64,000 nucleotides of DNA from the NCBI GenBank assembly GCA_014803435.1, contig JACYFD010000002.1, forward strand, positions 248,001 through 312,000, in the 5' to 3' direction. The position numbers and the translations under genes were made by a program. The stretch comes from Cellulosimicrobium terreum (GTDB taxonomy: Bacteria > Actinomycetota > Actinomycetes > Actinomycetales > Cellulomonadaceae). The notes under the pieces are model-generated. The model saw only the letters and a list, made by a program, of their open reading frames with translations. It was not told where the DNA came from and searched no databases. Shown here in pieces: positions 6,917 through 57,770 of the stretch (position 1 is its first letter; each line of letters begins with the position of its first letter).

Positions 6917-8353
6917 GTGCCCACCTTCGAGAAGTTCAACCTCCCCGACGCCGGTGAGGGTCTCACCGAGGCCGAGATCGTGCACTGGCACGTCGCGGTC
7001 GGCGACCGCGTCACCGTGAACCAGACGATCGTCGAGATCGAGACCGCGAAGTCGCTCGTCGAGCTGCCCTCGCCGTACACCGGCGTGGTCAGCGAGATCC
7101 TCGCCGCCGAGGGCGTGACGGTCGAGGTCGGCGTGCCGATCGTCGTCGTCGACACGGACCCGGACGGTGCCGCCCCCGCCGCACCCGCCGCCCCCGACAG
7201 CGCGGCCACGGACCTGTCAGCACCCCAGGGGTCCGGGGACCGGCCGGTCGCTGACAGCTCGGAGAAGGCAGCCGGGGCAGAGACGGGGTCGGGTTCGGTG
7301 CTCGTCGGGTACGGGACGGTCGAGCCGGGCTCGGCGCGTCGCCGCCGCCGCGCTGCGGAGGTGAGCACCCCCGACCTGTCAGCACCCCAGGGGTCCGGGA
7401 CCCCCTCCAGCGCTGACAGCCCGCCGGCCGCCGTCGTGCACGCGCACCTGCCCGTGCTCGCCAAGCCGCCGGTGCGCAAGCTCGCGAAGGACCTCGGCGT
7501 CGATCTCACGAGCGTCGCCGGGACGGGCCCGGGCGGGATCGTCACGCGCGAGGACGTCGTCGCCCACGTCGAGCAGGCGAAGGCCCAGCCGCTCGCGACC
7601 TACGCGGCCGACGACCAGCCGTGGCTCGCCTCCGGCACCGTCACGCCCGGCGGCCGCCAGACCCGTGTGCCCGTGAAGTCCGTCCGCAAGCGCACCGCGG
7701 AGGCGATGGTCGCGAGCGCGTTCACCGCGCCGCACGTCACGGTGTTCCGGACGGTCGACGTCACGCGGACCATGAAGCTCGTGCACACGCTGCGCGAGGA
7801 CCGCGAGTTCGCGGACGTGCGGGTCACGCCGCTGCTCGTCACCGCCAAGGCGATGCTCCTGGCCGTGCGTCGCCACCCCGAGATCAACGCGAGCTGGGAC
7901 GACGCCGCGCAGGAGATCGTCTACAAGCACTACGTGAACCTGGGGATCGCGGCCGCGACGCCGCGCGGGCTCGTCGTGCCGAACATCAAGGACGCGCACC
8001 GCCTCGACCTGCTCGGCCTCGCCGGGGAGATCGCCGACCTCACGGGGACCGCGCGGGCGGGCCGGACGTCGCCGTCCGACATGTCCGACGGCACCATCAC
8101 GATCACGAACGTCGGGGTCTTCGGCATCGACACCGGTACCCCGATCCTCAACCCGGGCGAGGCGGCGATCCTCGCGTTCGGCGCGATCCGTGAGCAGCCC
8201 TGGGTGCACAAGGGCAAGATCAAGAAGCGCTGGGTCACGCAGCTCGCGCTGAGCTTCGACCACCGGCTCGTGGACGGCGAGCTCGGGTCGCGCTTCCTGT
8301 CCGACGTCGCGCGCGTCCTCGAGGACCCCGCGCGCGGCCTCGTCTGGGGCTGA
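6917..8353 (+). CDS. 2-oxoacid dehydrogenase E2, lipoyl acyltransferase
   Basis: This 478-residue protein has a lipoyl domain (residues 1-80, lipoyl-lysine K45 in ETAKS), a linker, a peripheral-subunit-binding domain at about residues 181-215 (RKLAKDLGVDL) and a catalytic acyltransferase domain ending with the DHRLVDG motif (H449, D453). It accepts the acyl group from E1 and passes it to CoA. The start is GTG 6917 after AGGAGG. The linker contains two copies of the 17-codon palindromic module (residues 99-115 and 153-169), one between the lipoyl and binding domains and one just before the binding domain. Both are in frame, so the protein is predicted to be intact with a lengthened flexible arm. 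Confidence 0.92.
   Translation: MPTFEKFNLPDAGEGLTEAEIVHWHVAVGDRVTVNQTIVEIETAKSLVELPSPYTGVVSEILAAEGVTVEVGVPIVVVDTDPDGAAPAAPAAPDSAATDLSAPQGSGDRPVADSSEKAAGAETGSGSVLVGYGTVEPGSARRRRRAAEVSTPDLSAPQGSGTPSSADSPPAAVVHAHLPVLAKPPVRKLAKDLGVDLTSVAGTGPGGIVTREDVVAHVEQAKAQPLATYAADDQPWLASGTVTPGGRQTRVPVKSVRKRTAEAMVASAFTAPHVTVFRTVDVTRTMKLVHTLREDREFADVRVTPLLVTAKAMLLAVRRHPEINASWDDAAQEIVYKHYVNLGIAAATPRGLVVPNIKDAHRLDLLGLAGEIADLTGTARAGRTSPSDMSDGTITITNVGVFGIDTGTPILNPGEAAILAFGAIREQPWVHKGKIKKRWVTQLALSFDHRLVDGELGSRFLSDVARVLEDPARGLVWG
7214..7257 (+). repeat. In-frame 44-bp palindromic element, copy A (in E2)
   Basis: The element has CTGTCAGC and GCTGACAG ends with a 28-nt core containing CCCCAGGGG and a GGTCC/GGACC inner hairpin. 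It is read in frame as residues 99-115 of E2, DLSAPQGSGDRPVADSS, between the lipoyl and subunit-binding domains. Confidence 0.9.
7376..7419 (+). repeat. In-frame 44-bp palindromic element, copy B (in E2)
   Basis: The ends and length are the same as copy A, and the first 14 core bases are identical. It encodes DLSAPQGSGTPSSADSP at residues 153-169 of E2, just before the subunit-binding domain. Two copies in one linker suggest either repeated insertion or local duplication. Confidence 0.9.
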
Positions 8354-9986: not shown

Positions 9987-12266
9987 ATGGCACCCGCCCG
10001 CACGCACTGCCCGTACTGCGCCCTCCAGTGCGGCATGTCCCTCGCGCCCGTGCCCGCCGCCACCTCCACGGGCGGGGTGGAGACCACCCCGCCCGTGGAG
10101 GTGGCGCCGCGCGAGTTCCCGACGAACAAGGGCGGGCTGTGCCAGAAGGGGTGGACCAGCGCGAGCGTGCTGCGCGCGACCGACCGTCTGACGACGCCGC
10201 TCCTGCGCGGTGACGACGGCGAGCTGCACCCCGCGTCGTGGGACGCGGCGCTCGACGTCGTCGCCGGCGGGATCGAGCGCGTCCAGGAGGCGCACGGCAG
10301 GGACGCGGTCGCGATCTTCGGCGGGGGCGGGCTGACCAACGAGAAGGCGTACGCGCTCGGGAAGTTCGCCCGCACGGTGCTGCGCACCGCGAACATCGAC
10401 TACAACGGGCGGTTCTGCATGGCGTCCGCGGCGGCGGCGTCGAACCGGGCGTTCGGCATGGACCGCGGGCTGCCGTTCCCGCTCGCGGACCTCGCAGGCG
10501 CGGACGCGGTCCTGCTGCTCGGGTCCAACCTCGCCGAGACCATGCCGCCGTCGGTGCAGCACCTCGCGGGCGTGCGCTCGCGCGGCGGGCTCGTCGTCGT
10601 GGACCCGCGCCGCAGCGCGACGGTCGTGCTCACGGGCGACGCCGAGGCCCGCGAGGGCGTCCCGACGGCTGTCGGCCCCGTCGGCGACCAGGGCCTGCAC
10701 CTGCAGCCCGTGCCCGGGACCGACCTCGTGGTGCTGCTCGCCCTCCTGCACGTCGTCGTGACCGAGGGGCTCGTGGACGAGGAGTACGTCGCGGAGCGGA
10801 CCACCGGGTTCGACGACGTGCGGCGGTCCGTCATGGCCTGGTGGCCCGAGCGCGCCGAGACGGTGTGCGGGGTACCGGCGGAGCGGCTGAGGCACGTGGC
10901 GCGGATGCTCGCCGCGGCGTCGCCGACGCGCGGCGGTGCCGGCGCCTACCTGCTGACCGGGCGCGGCGTCGAGCAGTCGACGCAGGGCACCGCGACCGTC
11001 ACGGCCACCATCAACCTCGCGCTCGCACTCGGGCTGCCCGGTCGCGTGGGGTCGGGATACGGCGCGATCACGGGACAGGGCAACGGGCAGGGCGGTCGTG
11101 AGCACGGGCAGAAGGCCGACCAGCTCCCCGGCTACCGCAAGATCGACGACCCGGCGGCGCGCGCGCACGTCGCCGAGGTCTGGGGCGTGGACCCGCAGAC
11201 CATCCCCGGGCCGGGCATGCCGGCGGTGCAGCTCCTGCGCTCGCTCGGCGGTCCGGACGTGGACGACGCCGGGCGCGTGCGGCCCCGCGTCCTGCTCGTG
11301 CACGGCTCGAACGTCGTCGTCAGCGCCCCGAACGCGGACCGCGTCACGGCAGGGCTGCGCGCGCTGGACCTGCTCGTCGTGTGCGACGTCGTGCCGTCCG
11401 AGACGGCGCTGCTGGCGGACGTCGTGCTCCCCGTGACGCAGTGGGCGGAGGAGGAGGGGACCATGACGTCGCTCGAGGGCCGTGTGATCCGCCGCCGCCG
11501 CGCGGTCGCCGCGCCGGGCGAGGTGCGGTCCGAGCTGTGGATCCTCGCGGAGCTCGCGCGCCGGCTCGGGTCGACGGTCGGCTTCCCGACCGATCCCGCC
11601 GTCGTGTTCGACGAGCTCGCGCGTGCGTCGGCAGGTGGCATCGCCGACTACTCGGGACTGAGCCACGCCCGCCTCGACGCGGACGAGGACACGGACGGGC
11701 CGGGACTGTTCTGGCCCGTCCCCGCGGACCACCCGGGGACGCCGCGCACCTTCCTCGACAGCTTCCCGACGCCGGACGGCCGCGCCCGCACGATCGTGGT
11801 CGACCATGTCGGCCCGAGCGACGACGTGCGCCCCGGCGCACCGATCTACCTCGTCACCGGCCGCGTGCTTCAGCACTACCAGTCCGGCGCGCAGACGCAC
11901 CGCGTGCCCGAGCTCGAGCGGATCGTCGGGGTGCCGTTCGTCGAGATGCACCCGGTCCTCGGGTTCCGCCTCGGCGTGTCCGACGGCGACCGTGTACGCC
12001 TCACGTCGAGCCGCGGTCACGTCGAGGCCGTCACGCGCTGGAGCGACCGCATCCGCCCCGACACGGTCTTCATGCCGTTCCACTGGAGCGGCATCGGGAG
12101 CGTCAACCGCGTCACGACCGACGCGACCGACCCGGTCTCCGGGATGCCCGAGTTCAAGGTCTGCGCGGTCGACGTCCGCGCGGCCCGCAGCACGGACGCG
12201 CTGTCAGCGCCCGGCCGGTCCTGGGACCGGCGCGGTGCTGACAGCGCGCTGGAGGTGAGCGCATGA
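9987..12266 (+). CDS. nasA: Assimilatory nitrate reductase, molybdopterin catalytic subunit
   Basis: This 759-residue bis-MGD molybdoenzyme reduces nitrate to nitrite. An N-terminal [4Fe-4S] site is formed by C8, C11, C15 and C52 (HCPYCALQC and GGLCQKG). The molybdopterin oxidoreductase core and the C-terminal dinucleotide-binding domain (LVTGRVLQHYQSG) follow. The start is ATG 9987. The last codon overlaps the next gene as ATGA. Two oddities are visible. A 49-bp perfect hairpin encodes residues 24-40 between the third and fourth cluster cysteines. A copy of the 44-bp palindromic module forms residues 738-754 near the C-terminus. Neither disrupts the frame. Confidence 0.92.
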   Translation: MAPARTHCPYCALQCGMSLAPVPAATSTGGVETTPPVEVAPREFPTNKGGLCQKGWTSASVLRATDRLTTPLLRGDDGELHPASWDAALDVVAGGIERVQEAHGRDAVAIFGGGGLTNEKAYALGKFARTVLRTANIDYNGRFCMASAAAASNRAFGMDRGLPFPLADLAGADAVLLLGSNLAETMPPSVQHLAGVRSRGGLVVVDPRRSATVVLTGDAEAREGVPTAVGPVGDQGLHLQPVPGTDLVVLLALLHVVVTEGLVDEEYVAERTTGFDDVRRSVMAWWPERAETVCGVPAERLRHVARMLAAASPTRGGAGAYLLTGRGVEQSTQGTATVTATINLALALGLPGRVGSGYGAITGQGNGQGGREHGQKADQLPGYRKIDDPAARAHVAEVWGVDPQTIPGPGMPAVQLLRSLGGPDVDDAGRVRPRVLLVHGSNVVVSAPNADRVTAGLRALDLLVVCDVVPSETALLADVVLPVTQWAEEEGTMTSLEGRVIRRRRAVAAPGEVRSELWILAELARRLGSTVGFPTDPAVVFDELARASAGGIADYSGLSHARLDADEDTDGPGLFWPVPADHPGTPRTFLDSFPTPDGRARTIVVDHVGPSDDVRPGAPIYLVTGRVLQHYQSGAQTHRVPELERIVGVPFVEMHPVLGFRLGVSDGDRVRLTSSRGHVEAVTRWSDRIRPDTVFMPFHWSGIGSVNRVTTDATDPVSGMPEFKVCAVDVRAARSTDALSAPGRSWDRRGADSALEVSA
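10058..10106 (+). repeat. 49-bp perfect hairpin inside nasA
   Basis: Two 23-bp perfectly complementary arms flank an AGA loop. The right arm encodes the expected nitrate-reductase residues around PVEVAP. The left arm encodes TSTGGVE-type residues that look like an inverted copy of the right arm. It lies between the third and fourth [4Fe-4S] cysteines and keeps the frame. Confidence 0.9.
12201..12244 (+). repeat. In-frame 44-bp palindromic element, copy C (end of nasA)
   Basis: The ends are intact and the complementarity extends three more bases on each side (GCG/CGC). The core differs from copies A and B (CCGGCCGG and CCTGGGACC). It encodes ALSAPGRSWDRRGADSA, residues 738-754, in the C-terminal tail of the nitrate reductase. 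Confidence 0.88.
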
Positions 12267-14029
12267 GCCGCGTCGTGGTGATCGGCAACGGGATGGTGGG
12301 GGCGCGGTTCGCGCAGGACCTCGTGGCGCGCGCGAACGCCGCGGGCGCGGAGTGCGACGTGACCGTGCTGGGCGCCGAGGAGTACGAGCCGTACAACCGG
12401 GTCCTGCTCAGCGAGGTCGTCGCGGGCAAGGTCGACGTCGCGGCCATCGGGCTCCCGGGGCCCGACGACGCGCGCGTCGTCGTCCGCCGCGGGACCGAGG
12501 TCATCGCGATCGACCGCACCGCGCGCCAGGTCGTGACGGGCGAGGGCACCTACCCGTACGACGTCGTCGTGCTCGCGACCGGCGCGGCGGCCCGCATCCC
12601 GCAGACTCCCGGGCTCACGGACCGTCCCGGCGGGCTGCCGGGCGGCGCGCACGCGCTGCGCACGCTCGACGACGCGCGCGAGATCGTCGCCGCGTCGGTG
12701 AACGCCCGCCACGCGGTCGTCGTCGGGGCGGGCGTGCTCGGGCTCGAGGTGGCGTGCGGGCTCGCGCGGCGCGGCGTCCCGGTGAGCATCGTGCACCCGG
12801 GGGCGAGCCTCATGGACCGCCAGCTCGACACCGCGGCGGGGCGCGTCGTCGAGCGCAGCCTCGCCGGGCTGGGCGTGCGCACGTGGACGCACGCCCGGAC
12901 CGATCAGGTCCGCGTCGGTCCGAGCGGTCGGGTCTCGGGGCTGAGCCTGCGGGTGCCCGACGACGGGGACGAGCGGGTCGTCGACTTCGACGCCGACCTG
13001 CTCGTGCTCGCGTGCGGGACGGTTCCCGAGGCCGGGCTCGCGCGCACGGCGGGCTTGACGGTCGACCGGGGCGTCGTCGTCGGAGCCGACCTCGCGAGCC
13101 CGGACGACCCGCGCGTCTTCGCGATCGGGGACTGCGCGCAGCCTCCCGAGGGCGGGAGCGGGCTCATCGCGCAGGGCTGGGACCAGTCGCGCCGGCTCGC
13201 GCAGGCGCTCGCGGACCAGTTCGCCGGGGACCGTGGCGCTGCCCCGGAACCGGTGGACGACGACGTCGAGCACGACCACCCGCACGTCCGGTTCGGCGAG
13301 CAGGACCGGCCGAGCATGGCGCTGCGCCTCGCGATGAGCGTCGTCACGCGACCCGTCGCCGACCTGTCAGCGTCCCAGGGGTCCAGGGACCCGCAGCGCG
13401 CTGACAGCTCGGCACCCGGAAAGCTGTCAGCGTCCCAGGGGTCCGGGGGACGGCAGGGCGCTGACAGGTCGAGCGGGACCGACGTCGTGCGCGTCAAGGC
13501 CGCGGGCCTCGAGATCGTCACGATGGGCGTGTGCGGCACGCGCCGGGCGCCCGACCCCGCGCACCGCACCGTCGCGCTGAGCGACCCCGTGTCGGGCCGC
13601 CACGTCGAGGTGGTCGTCGCGGACGGTCAGCTCGTCGGTGCCACGTGCGTCGGTGCGCCGGACGTCGGCGCCGACCTCACCGCGACCTACACCCGGCGCA
13701 CACCCGTCCCGGCCGACCCGGCCCACCTCCTGCTGCGACCGGTCGCACAGGCTCCCGCACCGGCGTCGACCCCCACGCACATGCCCGACCGGACCACGGT
13801 CTGCACGTGCAACGGCGTGACGAAGGGCGACATCGTCGCGTGCTGGCACGACGACGGCGCGCGCACCGTCGCCGACGTCGCGCGGGCGACCCGCGCGACG
13901 ACGGGGTGCGGCGGTTGCAAGGACGTCGTCTGCGGGCTCGTCGACTGGTTGGGCAAGGCGGACCCCGAGCAGCCGACGAGCGATCAGTCGCCGGTCAGCG
14001 GCGAGAGGGGGGTGCCGTCGGCGGTGTAG
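12263..14029 (+). CDS. nasC: Nitrate reductase electron-transfer subunit: NAD(P)H/FAD oxidoreductase with BFD-like [2Fe-2S] domain
   Basis: This 588-residue protein resembles the N-terminal half of NirB. A pyridine nucleotide-disulfide oxidoreductase fold carries GNGMVGARF at the N-terminus, EEYEPYNRVLLSEV, a second nucleotide motif (VVVGAGVLGLEVA) and a FAD motif VFAIGDCAQPP. The C-terminus is a bacterioferritin-associated-ferredoxin domain with a [2Fe-2S] site at C514, C516, C549 and C552. It would pass NAD(P)H electrons to the adjacent nitrate reductase. Two palindromic modules occupy residues 367-383 and 387-403, in the region following the FAD domain. The start overlaps nasA by ATGA, and the 3' end overlaps a convergent gene by 46 bp. 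Confidence 0.85.
   Translation: MSRVVVIGNGMVGARFAQDLVARANAAGAECDVTVLGAEEYEPYNRVLLSEVVAGKVDVAAIGLPGPDDARVVVRRGTEVIAIDRTARQVVTGEGTYPYDVVVLATGAAARIPQTPGLTDRPGGLPGGAHALRTLDDAREIVAASVNARHAVVVGAGVLGLEVACGLARRGVPVSIVHPGASLMDRQLDTAAGRVVERSLAGLGVRTWTHARTDQVRVGPSGRVSGLSLRVPDDGDERVVDFDADLLVLACGTVPEAGLARTAGLTVDRGVVVGADLASPDDPRVFAIGDCAQPPEGGSGLIAQGWDQSRRLAQALADQFAGDRGAAPEPVDDDVEHDHPHVRFGEQDRPSMALRLAMSVVTRPVADLSASQGSRDPQRADSSAPGKLSASQGSGGRQGADRSSGTDVVRVKAAGLEIVTMGVCGTRRAPDPAHRTVALSDPVSGRHVEVVVADGQLVGATCVGAPDVGADLTATYTRRTPVPADPAHLLLRPVAQAPAPASTPTHMPDRTTVCTCNGVTKGDIVACWHDDGARTVADVARATRATTGCGGCKDVVCGLVDWLGKADPEQPTSDQSPVSGERGVPSAV
13364..13407 (+). repeat. In-frame 44-bp palindromic element, copy D (in nasC)
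   Basis: Intact ends surround a core beginning GTCCCAGGGGTCC. It encodes DLSASQGSRDPQRADSS at residues 367-383. Copy E follows 16 bp later with the same first 15 core bases except for one position, so the pair may be a local duplication. Confidence 0.9.
13424..13467 (+). repeat. In-frame 44-bp palindromic element, copy E (in nasC)
   Basis: Intact ends are present. It encodes KLSASQGSGGRQGADRS at residues 387-403. The outer flanks read AAG...GTC, whereas copies A and D read GAC...CTC. Confidence 0.9.
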
Positions 14030-18849: not shown

Positions 18850-20177
18850 CCACCCTCCTGGGGCTGGACCTCGCGGGCCGGAGCGTCCTCGTCGCCGGCG
18901 GCGGGCCCGTCGCCGCGCGGCGTGCCCGCGCGATGCTCGACGACGGCGCGCACGTCCGTGTCGTCGCCCCGCAGCTCTGCGAGGACCTGCGCGAGCTCGT
19001 CGTCGCCGGGTTCTCCGCCGACGACCTGCGGTCCGACCGGCCCGGTGCCGGCAGCGTGACGTGGGTCCCGCGCGAGGTGCGCGAGAACGACCTCGACACG
19101 GCGTGGCTCGTCCTCGCCGCGACCGACGACTCCGGAGTGAACCGGGCGGTCGCGGCGTGGGCGGACGCGCGCCGCACCTGGTGCGTGAACGCCGGCGCCG
19201 CGCACGAGGGCACGGCCCGCACCCCCGCGACGACGCGCAGCGGCGACGTCCTCGTCGGCGTCGTCACCGCGGCGACCACCGCCCCCGAGCTGTCAGCGCT
19301 CCAGGGGTCCAGGGACCCGCGGGACGCTGACAGGTCGCCGCGGCCGGCCGATCCTCGCCGCGTCCGTGCGGTCCGCGACTCGATCGCGGAGCACCTGCGG
19401 GCCGGGGGCGCCGACCAGCGCCGGCACCGGTCGGTCCCCGGCGCCCTCGGCCGGGTGACCCTCGTGGGCGGCGGCCCTGGTGCCGTCGACCTCCTCACCG
19501 TCCGCGGGCGCCGCGCGCTCGCCGAGGCGGACGTGGTCGTCGCGGACCGGCTCGGACCCGTCGACGTGCTCGACGAGCTCGCCCCCGGCGTCGAGGTGAT
19601 CGACGTCGGCAAGACACCCGGCAACCACCCCGTGCCGCAGCACGAGATCAACGCGATCCTCGTCGAGCAGGCGCGTCGCGGCCGGACCGTGGTCCGCCTC
19701 AAGGGCGGCGACCCGTTCGTCTACGGGCGCGGTGGCGAGGAGGTGCTGGCGTGCCGCGAGGCCGGCGTCCCCGTCGACGTCGTGCCCGGGGTCTCCAGCG
19801 CCCTCAGCGTGCCGGCGCTCGCCGGCATCCCGCTGACCCACCGGGGCACGGTCGCCGCGTTCCACGTCATCAGCGGTCACGACGGTCTCGACGACGCCGC
19901 GCTCACGTGCGTACGCGATCGCGCGGCTACGCTGGTGGTCCTCATGGGTGTCTCTCAGCTCTCCCGCATCACGACCCAGGCTCTCGACGCCGGGGCCGAC
20001 CCGACCATGCCTGTCGCGATCGTCGAGAACGGCTCGACGCCGGGCCAGCGGGTGACGCGCTCGACCCTCGGCGACGTCGTCGGCCGCGCGGCGCAGGTCG
20101 GGGTGCGCGCGCCCGCGATCATCGTGGTGGGGGACGTCGCTGCCGAGGGTCGGCTCGACCCGGCGGCGGTCGCGTGA
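18846..20177 (+). CDS. cysG: Siroheme synthase: precorrin-2 dehydrogenase/uroporphyrinogen-III C-methyltransferase fusion
   Basis: This 443-residue two-domain protein supplies siroheme precursors for NirB. The N-terminal domain (residues 1-145) has the NAD-binding motif VAGGGPVAARRARAML of precorrin-2 dehydrogenases. The C-terminal domain (from about residue 200) is a SUMT methyltransferase with VGGGPGAVDLLTVRG, VVADRL, RLKGGDPFVYGRGGEE and the VPGVSSAL motif. The linker holds palindromic module copy G (residues 148-164). The iron-inserting step is probably done by the chelatase two genes downstream. The start is GTG 18846, overlapping nirD. Confidence 0.92.
   Translation: MTTLLGLDLAGRSVLVAGGGPVAARRARAMLDDGAHVRVVAPQLCEDLRELVVAGFSADDLRSDRPGAGSVTWVPREVRENDLDTAWLVLAATDDSGVNRAVAAWADARRTWCVNAGAAHEGTARTPATTRSGDVLVGVVTAATTAPELSALQGSRDPRDADRSPRPADPRRVRAVRDSIAEHLRAGGADQRRHRSVPGALGRVTLVGGGPGAVDLLTVRGRRALAEADVVVADRLGPVDVLDELAPGVEVIDVGKTPGNHPVPQHEINAILVEQARRGRTVVRLKGGDPFVYGRGGEEVLACREAGVPVDVVPGVSSALSVPALAGIPLTHRGTVAAFHVISGHDGLDDAALTCVRDRAATLVVLMGVSQLSRITTQALDAGADPTMPVAIVENGSTPGQRVTRSTLGDVVGRAAQVGVRAPAIIVVGDVAAEGRLDPAAVA
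19290..19333 (+). repeat. In-frame 44-bp palindromic element, copy G (in cysG)
   Basis: Intact CTGTCAGC and GCTGACAG ends and a core with CCAGGGGTCCAGGGACCC are present. It encodes ELSALQGSRDPRDADRS, residues 148-164, exactly in the linker between the two enzymatic domains. Confidence 0.9.
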
Positions 20178-34275: not shown

Positions 34276-34330
34276 CCCCCGTCGCCGCCGAGAACCCCAC
34301 CCCGCGCCGTCGAGAAGGCCACCACGCGCC

Positions 34331-34389
34331 GTCGAACACGACCTGAAGGTCGGGTAGCGCCTCGGAACGACCTTCAGGTCGTGTTCGGC
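34331..34389. repeat. GCCGAACACG palindromic element, copy 2
   Basis: This 59-bp element has two 22-bp arms with one mismatch and a 15-base loop. The arms contain CGACCTGAAGGTCG, itself a small hairpin. It lies between divergent genes, so this copy cannot serve as a terminator for either. Confidence 0.85.
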
Positions 34390-34424
34390 GGGGGCGGTCG
34401 GCCGGTGCGTGATAGGACGTACGG

Positions 34425-52189: not shown

Positions 52190-52249
52190 GCCGAACCCCG
52201 GGTTGTGTGCCGATCCGGTCGGCGAACGGCGCGCAACCCGGGGCTCGGC
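52190..52249. repeat. GCCGAACCCC intergenic palindrome, copy 1
   Basis: This 60-bp element has 16-nt outer arms (GCCGAACCCCGGGTTG and its inverse, one mismatch) and an inner GCCGA/TCGGC hairpin. It lies between the convergent NHL and EIIA genes and may double as a terminator. Confidence 0.85.
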
Positions 52250-57657: not shown

Positions 57658-57687
57658 GCCCGAGCCGGGTCGGACCGGACCGGGACC

Positions 57688-57747
57688 GCCGAACCCCGGG
57701 TCGCGCCCCGTTCAGACCGCTGAACGAGGTGCGACCCGGGGTTCGGC
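57688..57747. repeat. GCCGAACCCC intergenic palindrome, copy 2
   Basis: This 60-bp element has two 28-nt arms with 26 paired positions and a 4-nt loop. It shares the outer GCCGAACCCCGGGT arm with copy 1 and lies between the convergent ptsI and ptsH genes. Confidence 0.9.
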
Positions 57748-57770
57748 GCGGGACGGCCAGGTGGCGACCG

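Follow-up and report, generated by a model that had tools for sequence, protein, structure and literature searches.

The stretch of Cellulosimicrobium terreum DNA analysed here, 64,000 nucleotides long and referred to as the window, contains a nasA-like open reading frame that begins with the ATG at 9987 and has its stop codon ending at 12266. Pfam assigned Molybdopterin, Molydop_binding and Molybdop_Fe4S4 domains to the 759-residue product, and the best NCBIfam model was NasC, with a score of 658 bits against a curated cut-off of 1100. Since this score lies under the cut-off, the name 'nitrate reductase' rests partly on gene context: the ORF upstream resembles a transporter, and ORFs downstream resemble nitrite reductase. 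The gene and its relevant features, all on the forward strand, are as follows.

9987..12266, + strand: nasA-like coding sequence hosting the hairpin; 759 amino acids, a molybdopterin oxidoreductase with an N-terminal Fe4S4 domain (cluster cysteines C8, C11, C15, C52)
10032..10133, + strand: hypervariable linker from C15 to the G-L-C52 motif, 34 residues in the window gene
10058..10080, + strand: left arm of the hairpin, 23 bp, CGCCACCTCCACGGGCGGGGTGG; probable derived inverted copy, encoding AATSTGGV in the variable linker
10081..10083, + strand: hairpin loop, AGA
10084..10106, + strand: right arm of the hairpin, 23 bp, CCACCCCGCCCGTGGAGGTGGCG; ancestral, its outer part encoding the conserved PVEVA strand that adjoins PREFPTN

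The hairpin occupies 49 bases (10058-10106) in a 23/3/23 arrangement, both arms pairing without mismatch, and covers the third base of codon 24 through codon 40, counting from the ATG. A sequence-only reading of the locus had described exactly this perfect hairpin over residues 24-40, between C15 and C52, and had placed the usual PVEVAP residues in its right arm, where the conserved PVEVA codons were indeed found. When folded as RNA, the 49 nt reached -55.7 kcal/mol (z = -11.0), a value equalled by none of 200 shuffled sequences. In the AlphaFold model, residues 1-58 had a pLDDT below 50, and strands at residues 18-21 and 37-40 flanked the loop, which is only suggestive; the linker is probably a long beta-turn. 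No intrinsic terminator, i.e., a GC-rich stem followed by a run of T, was seen at the hairpin, as the stem is followed by CCGCGCGAGTTCCC, and no promoter signal was found there. In an Rfam search with the hairpin no family reached its gathering score, the matches below that score being driven by the generic stem.

Rarity of the hairpin in its contig and genome

Among perfect hairpins with a loop of up to 20 on contig C7 (728,517 bp), the nasA hairpin is the longest, and two dinucleotide-Markov versions of the same contig peaked at arms of 13-14 bp. The remaining long hairpins of the contig are mostly intergenic-looking or members of repeat families. Within its own genome (G000) the hairpin sequence is single-copy, the only matches being the locus and its own reverse complement.

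Several other palindromes were recorded in the course of this survey. A 44-bp palindromic element, CTGTCAGC...CCCAGGGGTCC...GCTGACAG, occurs in the window at 7214-7257, 7376-7419, 12201-12244, 13364-13407, 13424-13467 and 19290-19333; six of the nine clear copies on the 728-kb contig lie within 12 kb around nasA. Its copies sit in open frames, usually translated as LSAPQGSG..AD: in an acyltransferase linker, in the nirB-like ORF and across the 3' end of nasA. They are frequent in G000 and in one congener genome (G015), whereas the other congeners have few or none, and the element is reminiscent of palindromic elements translated in frame, those of Rickettsia for instance. The CGAACACGACCTG.../AGGTCGTGTTCG and GGGGGTCGTTATCC families are dispersed and apparently intergenic (for example C7:23869, 188027, 212545 and 466771; window 34329-34391), and a further family, GAACCCCGGGTTG..., was found at 52190-52249 and 57687-57748 of the window and at C7:560204 and C7:576860, one of its members lying in a coding-like frame. 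Outside the window, C7:411069-411114 reads as about 33 G followed by 13 C, which is likely an assembly or sequencing oddity.

Ancestry of the two arms

For comparison within the genus, the nasA genes of 16 other Cellulosimicrobium species were collected, one genome per species; the genus includes Cellulosimicrobium funkei (L058, the contig of G007). None of the 16 carries the hairpin, and the longest stems in their linkers are 5-8 bp; a scan of genome contigs recovered no sequence nearer to the window nasA than this genus set. The closest DNA match to the 5' region of the window gene is L034 (genome G003). The right-arm codons CCC GTG GAG GTG GCG are orthologous to CCC GTG GAG GTC GCG of L034, and the other congeners are similar at this point. 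When the left arm was compared with L034, the reverse complement scored 15.5, the forward strand 10, and the maximum of the shuffles was 12; against the forward strands of the congeners the left arm scored no better than shuffled sequence. It is to be kept in mind that L034 alone clearly beats the shuffles in the reverse-strand comparison, the other congeners being too divergent. Since the right arm is kept in relatives and the left arm matches the reverse complement of L034, the right arm is ancestral and the left arm is best read as an inverted copy of it, as the sequence-only reading had proposed.

The window nasA differs from every congener at 35-42% of fourfold sites, and over the 46 stem sites a mean of about 3.5 changes would be expected from the nearest split onwards at the all-site rate, or 11-12 at the fourfold rate. 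Given this divergence and the lack of the hairpin in all 16 congeners, the unbroken stem must be young or maintained, in keeping with the 'recent event or selection' that the perfect match had originally suggested. The distance from C15 to C52, proposed in the earlier reading as a check, is ordinary: the 34 residues of the window linker fall inside the genus range of 25-52, the range across 132 distinct actinobacterial orthologue linkers being 19-78. A lengthened linker was thus rejected, and because the length is ordinary, the left arm looks as if it took the place of variable codons and was not inserted.

Recurrence of hairpins in the homologous linker

The linker is a recurrent hairpin site in actinobacterial nasA. 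Perfect stems of at least 10 bp were present in 10 of 131 other orthologue linkers, the window's own linker being left out, compared with 17 of 1487 control windows of the same length taken from later parts of those genes (Fisher p = 2e-5), and compared with 101 of 13200 codon-order shuffles (p = 1e-7); as the orthologues are related to one another, both p values are approximate. The set comprised linkers collected before any targeting, and the Aeromicrobium loci fetched after a hairpin had been sighted there were kept out of it; a redundancy-filtered enrichment test that took in those loci was discarded for this reason. Genera with linker hairpins include Sanguibacter (L051), g24 (L036, L040), g33 (L211) and Aeromicrobium (L070, L267), and between genera the hairpins have no common sequence. 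For the window gene, L040 and L211, conserved PV[E/V/T]V codons fall in the right arm, which leaves the left arm as the free side; this pattern likely arises because the conserved strand is the donor and the loop tolerates nearly any sequence. A linker hairpin is absent from most orthologues, including those of 29 of the 30 g33 species examined. When proteins that are inversely complementary were redrawn with synonymous codons, long stems were restored through biased codons in 0.1-9% of draws; thus, the short hairpins should not be over-read one by one.

An unrelated linker hairpin in Aeromicrobium

At this position many Aeromicrobium species have a hairpin of another sequence, in which LGG-x-P-x-AAE is encoded by CTC GGC GGC ... 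GCC GCC GAG. Over its eight distinct variants, 94% of cells are paired and four pairs have changed on both sides (for example CAC..GTG, GAT..ATC, and GGC/GCC to CGC/GCG), the arms covarying together with the encoded residues, and the covariation score lies above all 500 shuffles and all slid registers. Codon redraws of the same proteins gave on average 8.5-9.6 of 13 pairs, and the probability of the observed pairing was 0.004-0.19 per variant. Distant orthologues that conserve both arms with compensating changes, a finding that the earlier reading had set against its own proposal, were therefore found for this Aeromicrobium hairpin, and none for that of the window.

In a clade of five species (L287, L288, L290, L294 and L300; linker AQKLGGDPIAAEPRAFPTNVG) GAT, a rare codon for Asp (70 of 841), is fixed across from ATC. 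The hairpin of this clade falls within 16 consecutive codons that do not differ between any of the five species, the next longest such run having five codons. Given the amino acids, the product of the per-residue identity rates over this run is about 5e-8, and pairwise fourfold divergence in the clade reaches 0.50. Correction of one arm by the other should not by itself keep the sequence unchanged from species to species, so that selection at the nucleotide level, or a recombination tract of unusually short length, is the likely explanation in this clade. The stem is missing from other Aeromicrobium species nested in the tree, and 29 g33 species lack one, so it is not generally required. A second match to the Aeromicrobium hairpin, in G536, sits in an unrelated frame and was put down to chance.

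Origin of the window hairpin

A template switch that copied the conserved right arm into the tolerant linker accounts for every measured feature of the window hairpin with no function needed, and on the sequence comparisons we regard it as probable. The strand fresh from copying the conserved PVEVA codons of the right arm would have folded back on itself, used about 23 nt of its own sequence as template and then rejoined the original one; the reverse complement of the right arm, now the left arm, would thereby have overwritten neighbouring codons in the linker that joins Fe-S cysteines 3 and 4. Short inverted repeats near the apex could seed such a fold-back, and repeats of 5-7 bp are present near this position in several congeners, although they are common in GC-rich DNA. 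The left arm would have survived because the frame was kept, no stop arose and the linker tolerates almost any sequence. Template switching, already put forward by the sequence-only reading, holds up as the best explanation, supported by the inverted copy, with the amendment that the linker was not lengthened and the copy would thus be a replacement. The comparisons show the perfect arms, their absence from congeners, the ancestral right arm, the tolerant linker and the single copy, and from these we infer the switching event, the strand used and its recency; the ancestor is represented by outgroup evidence from the 16 congeners, with the nearest fourfold divergence at 0.35-0.42.

Other origins have to be weighed against this one. 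Chance, acting through GC-rich codon bias in a linker rich in Gly, Pro, Ala, Thr and Val, is strongly disfavoured and seems barely credible: the composition does favour short stems, and synonymous redraws of the window protein reached 23 bp in 0.13% of draws, but codon-order shuffles of the window linker never did, the contig-scale null stopped far short of it, and the protein sequence itself is inversely complementary, which codon bias leaves unexplained. The same redraws also count against template switching, inasmuch as codon bias helps. Insertion of a dispersed palindromic element of the REP or RPE kind is brought to mind by the dispersed palindromes of this genome, including the CTGTCAGC...GCTGACAG family, which has copies in reading frames close to nasA and across the 3' end of that gene. 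However, the hairpin is found once in the genome and in no congener, has nothing in common with those families, and has ancestral nasA sequence as its right arm; being single-copy, it is not a mobile repeat, and such an origin, rejected on this ground, is extremely improbable. Fold-back artefacts do arise during library preparation, and the comparison was made on assembly sequence only; a fold-back chimera is nonetheless very unlikely, as the frame, the start, the cysteines and the whole 759-residue ORF are intact and the linker is of ordinary length.

The structure could also be kept by selection, with a stem in the early part of nasA affecting mRNA stability, pacing ribosomes at the Fe-S site or serving as a protein-binding palindrome, and with template switching as its possible supplier. 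Because of Aeromicrobium this is a real minority possibility: the paired, doubly substituted stem in the same place, the 16 identical codons in five otherwise divergent species and the fixed GAT codon all favour it, and a purely neutral mutational origin leaves that nucleotide-level conservation unexplained. Against it, most orthologues have no hairpin (the 16 congeners, nearly all g33 species and the nested Aeromicrobium species), the hairpins that exist share no sequence, neither terminator, promoter signal nor Rfam family was found, and the covariation seen in Aeromicrobium has no counterpart for the window hairpin, which no relative carries. Selection is thus, in our estimate, unlikely for the window hairpin. 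A broader proposal, which we consider unlikely, is that actinobacterial nasA repeatedly acquires, and in some lineages keeps by selection, a stem between Fe-S cysteines 3 and 4; this would be a convergent element within the gene, functioning as RNA or DNA and influencing nasA expression or cluster assembly, for which template switching provided unrelated sequences, and the window would carry the most extreme example. Overall, a lineage-specific coding palindrome formed by short-range template switching during replication remains the best explanation of the window hairpin.

Relation to known systems and significance

Template-switch mutations are known to create and maintain hairpins in microbes and rRNA genes (PMC8794818, PNAS 2022), and the present case is alike in that an inverted copy of adjacent sequence would give a perfect stem in one event, with arms that can later be homogenised, which produces multiple compensating changes. 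That study made reconstructions of rRNA genes with dense phylogenies, whereas here the gene is bacterial and protein-coding, with congeners standing in for the ancestor. In Saccharomyces cerevisiae, template switching in coding genes changes proteins (PMC8604942), with the same homogenisation of inverted-repeat arms in coding DNA, clustered amino-acid changes and recurrent events; the differences are the inferred tract of about 23 nt beside a conserved donor, the actinobacterial host, and recurrence across genera rather than strains. The coding palindromes of nematomorph mitochondrial genes (PMC6649704) are likewise perfect inverted repeats within genes that still yield protein, but they are many, reach 284 bp and have both arms in conserved regions, in contrast to one short repeat with the right arm only. 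The Rickettsia palindromic elements and REP families are also palindromic DNA, sometimes translated within ORFs, but are dispersed and multi-copy, unlike the single-copy nasA hairpin. A literature search combining nasA, hairpin and actinobacteria returned nothing relevant.

The window gene would thus offer a clean bacterial example in which a conserved coding block is the donor and a tolerant loop the acceptor, the protein having been rewritten in one inferred step. That hairpins recur at one homologous loop in different genera of actinobacteria amounts to a natural assay of how frequently such events are fixed, and Aeromicrobium provides a testable case of a coding hairpin that is apparently preserved at the nucleotide level.
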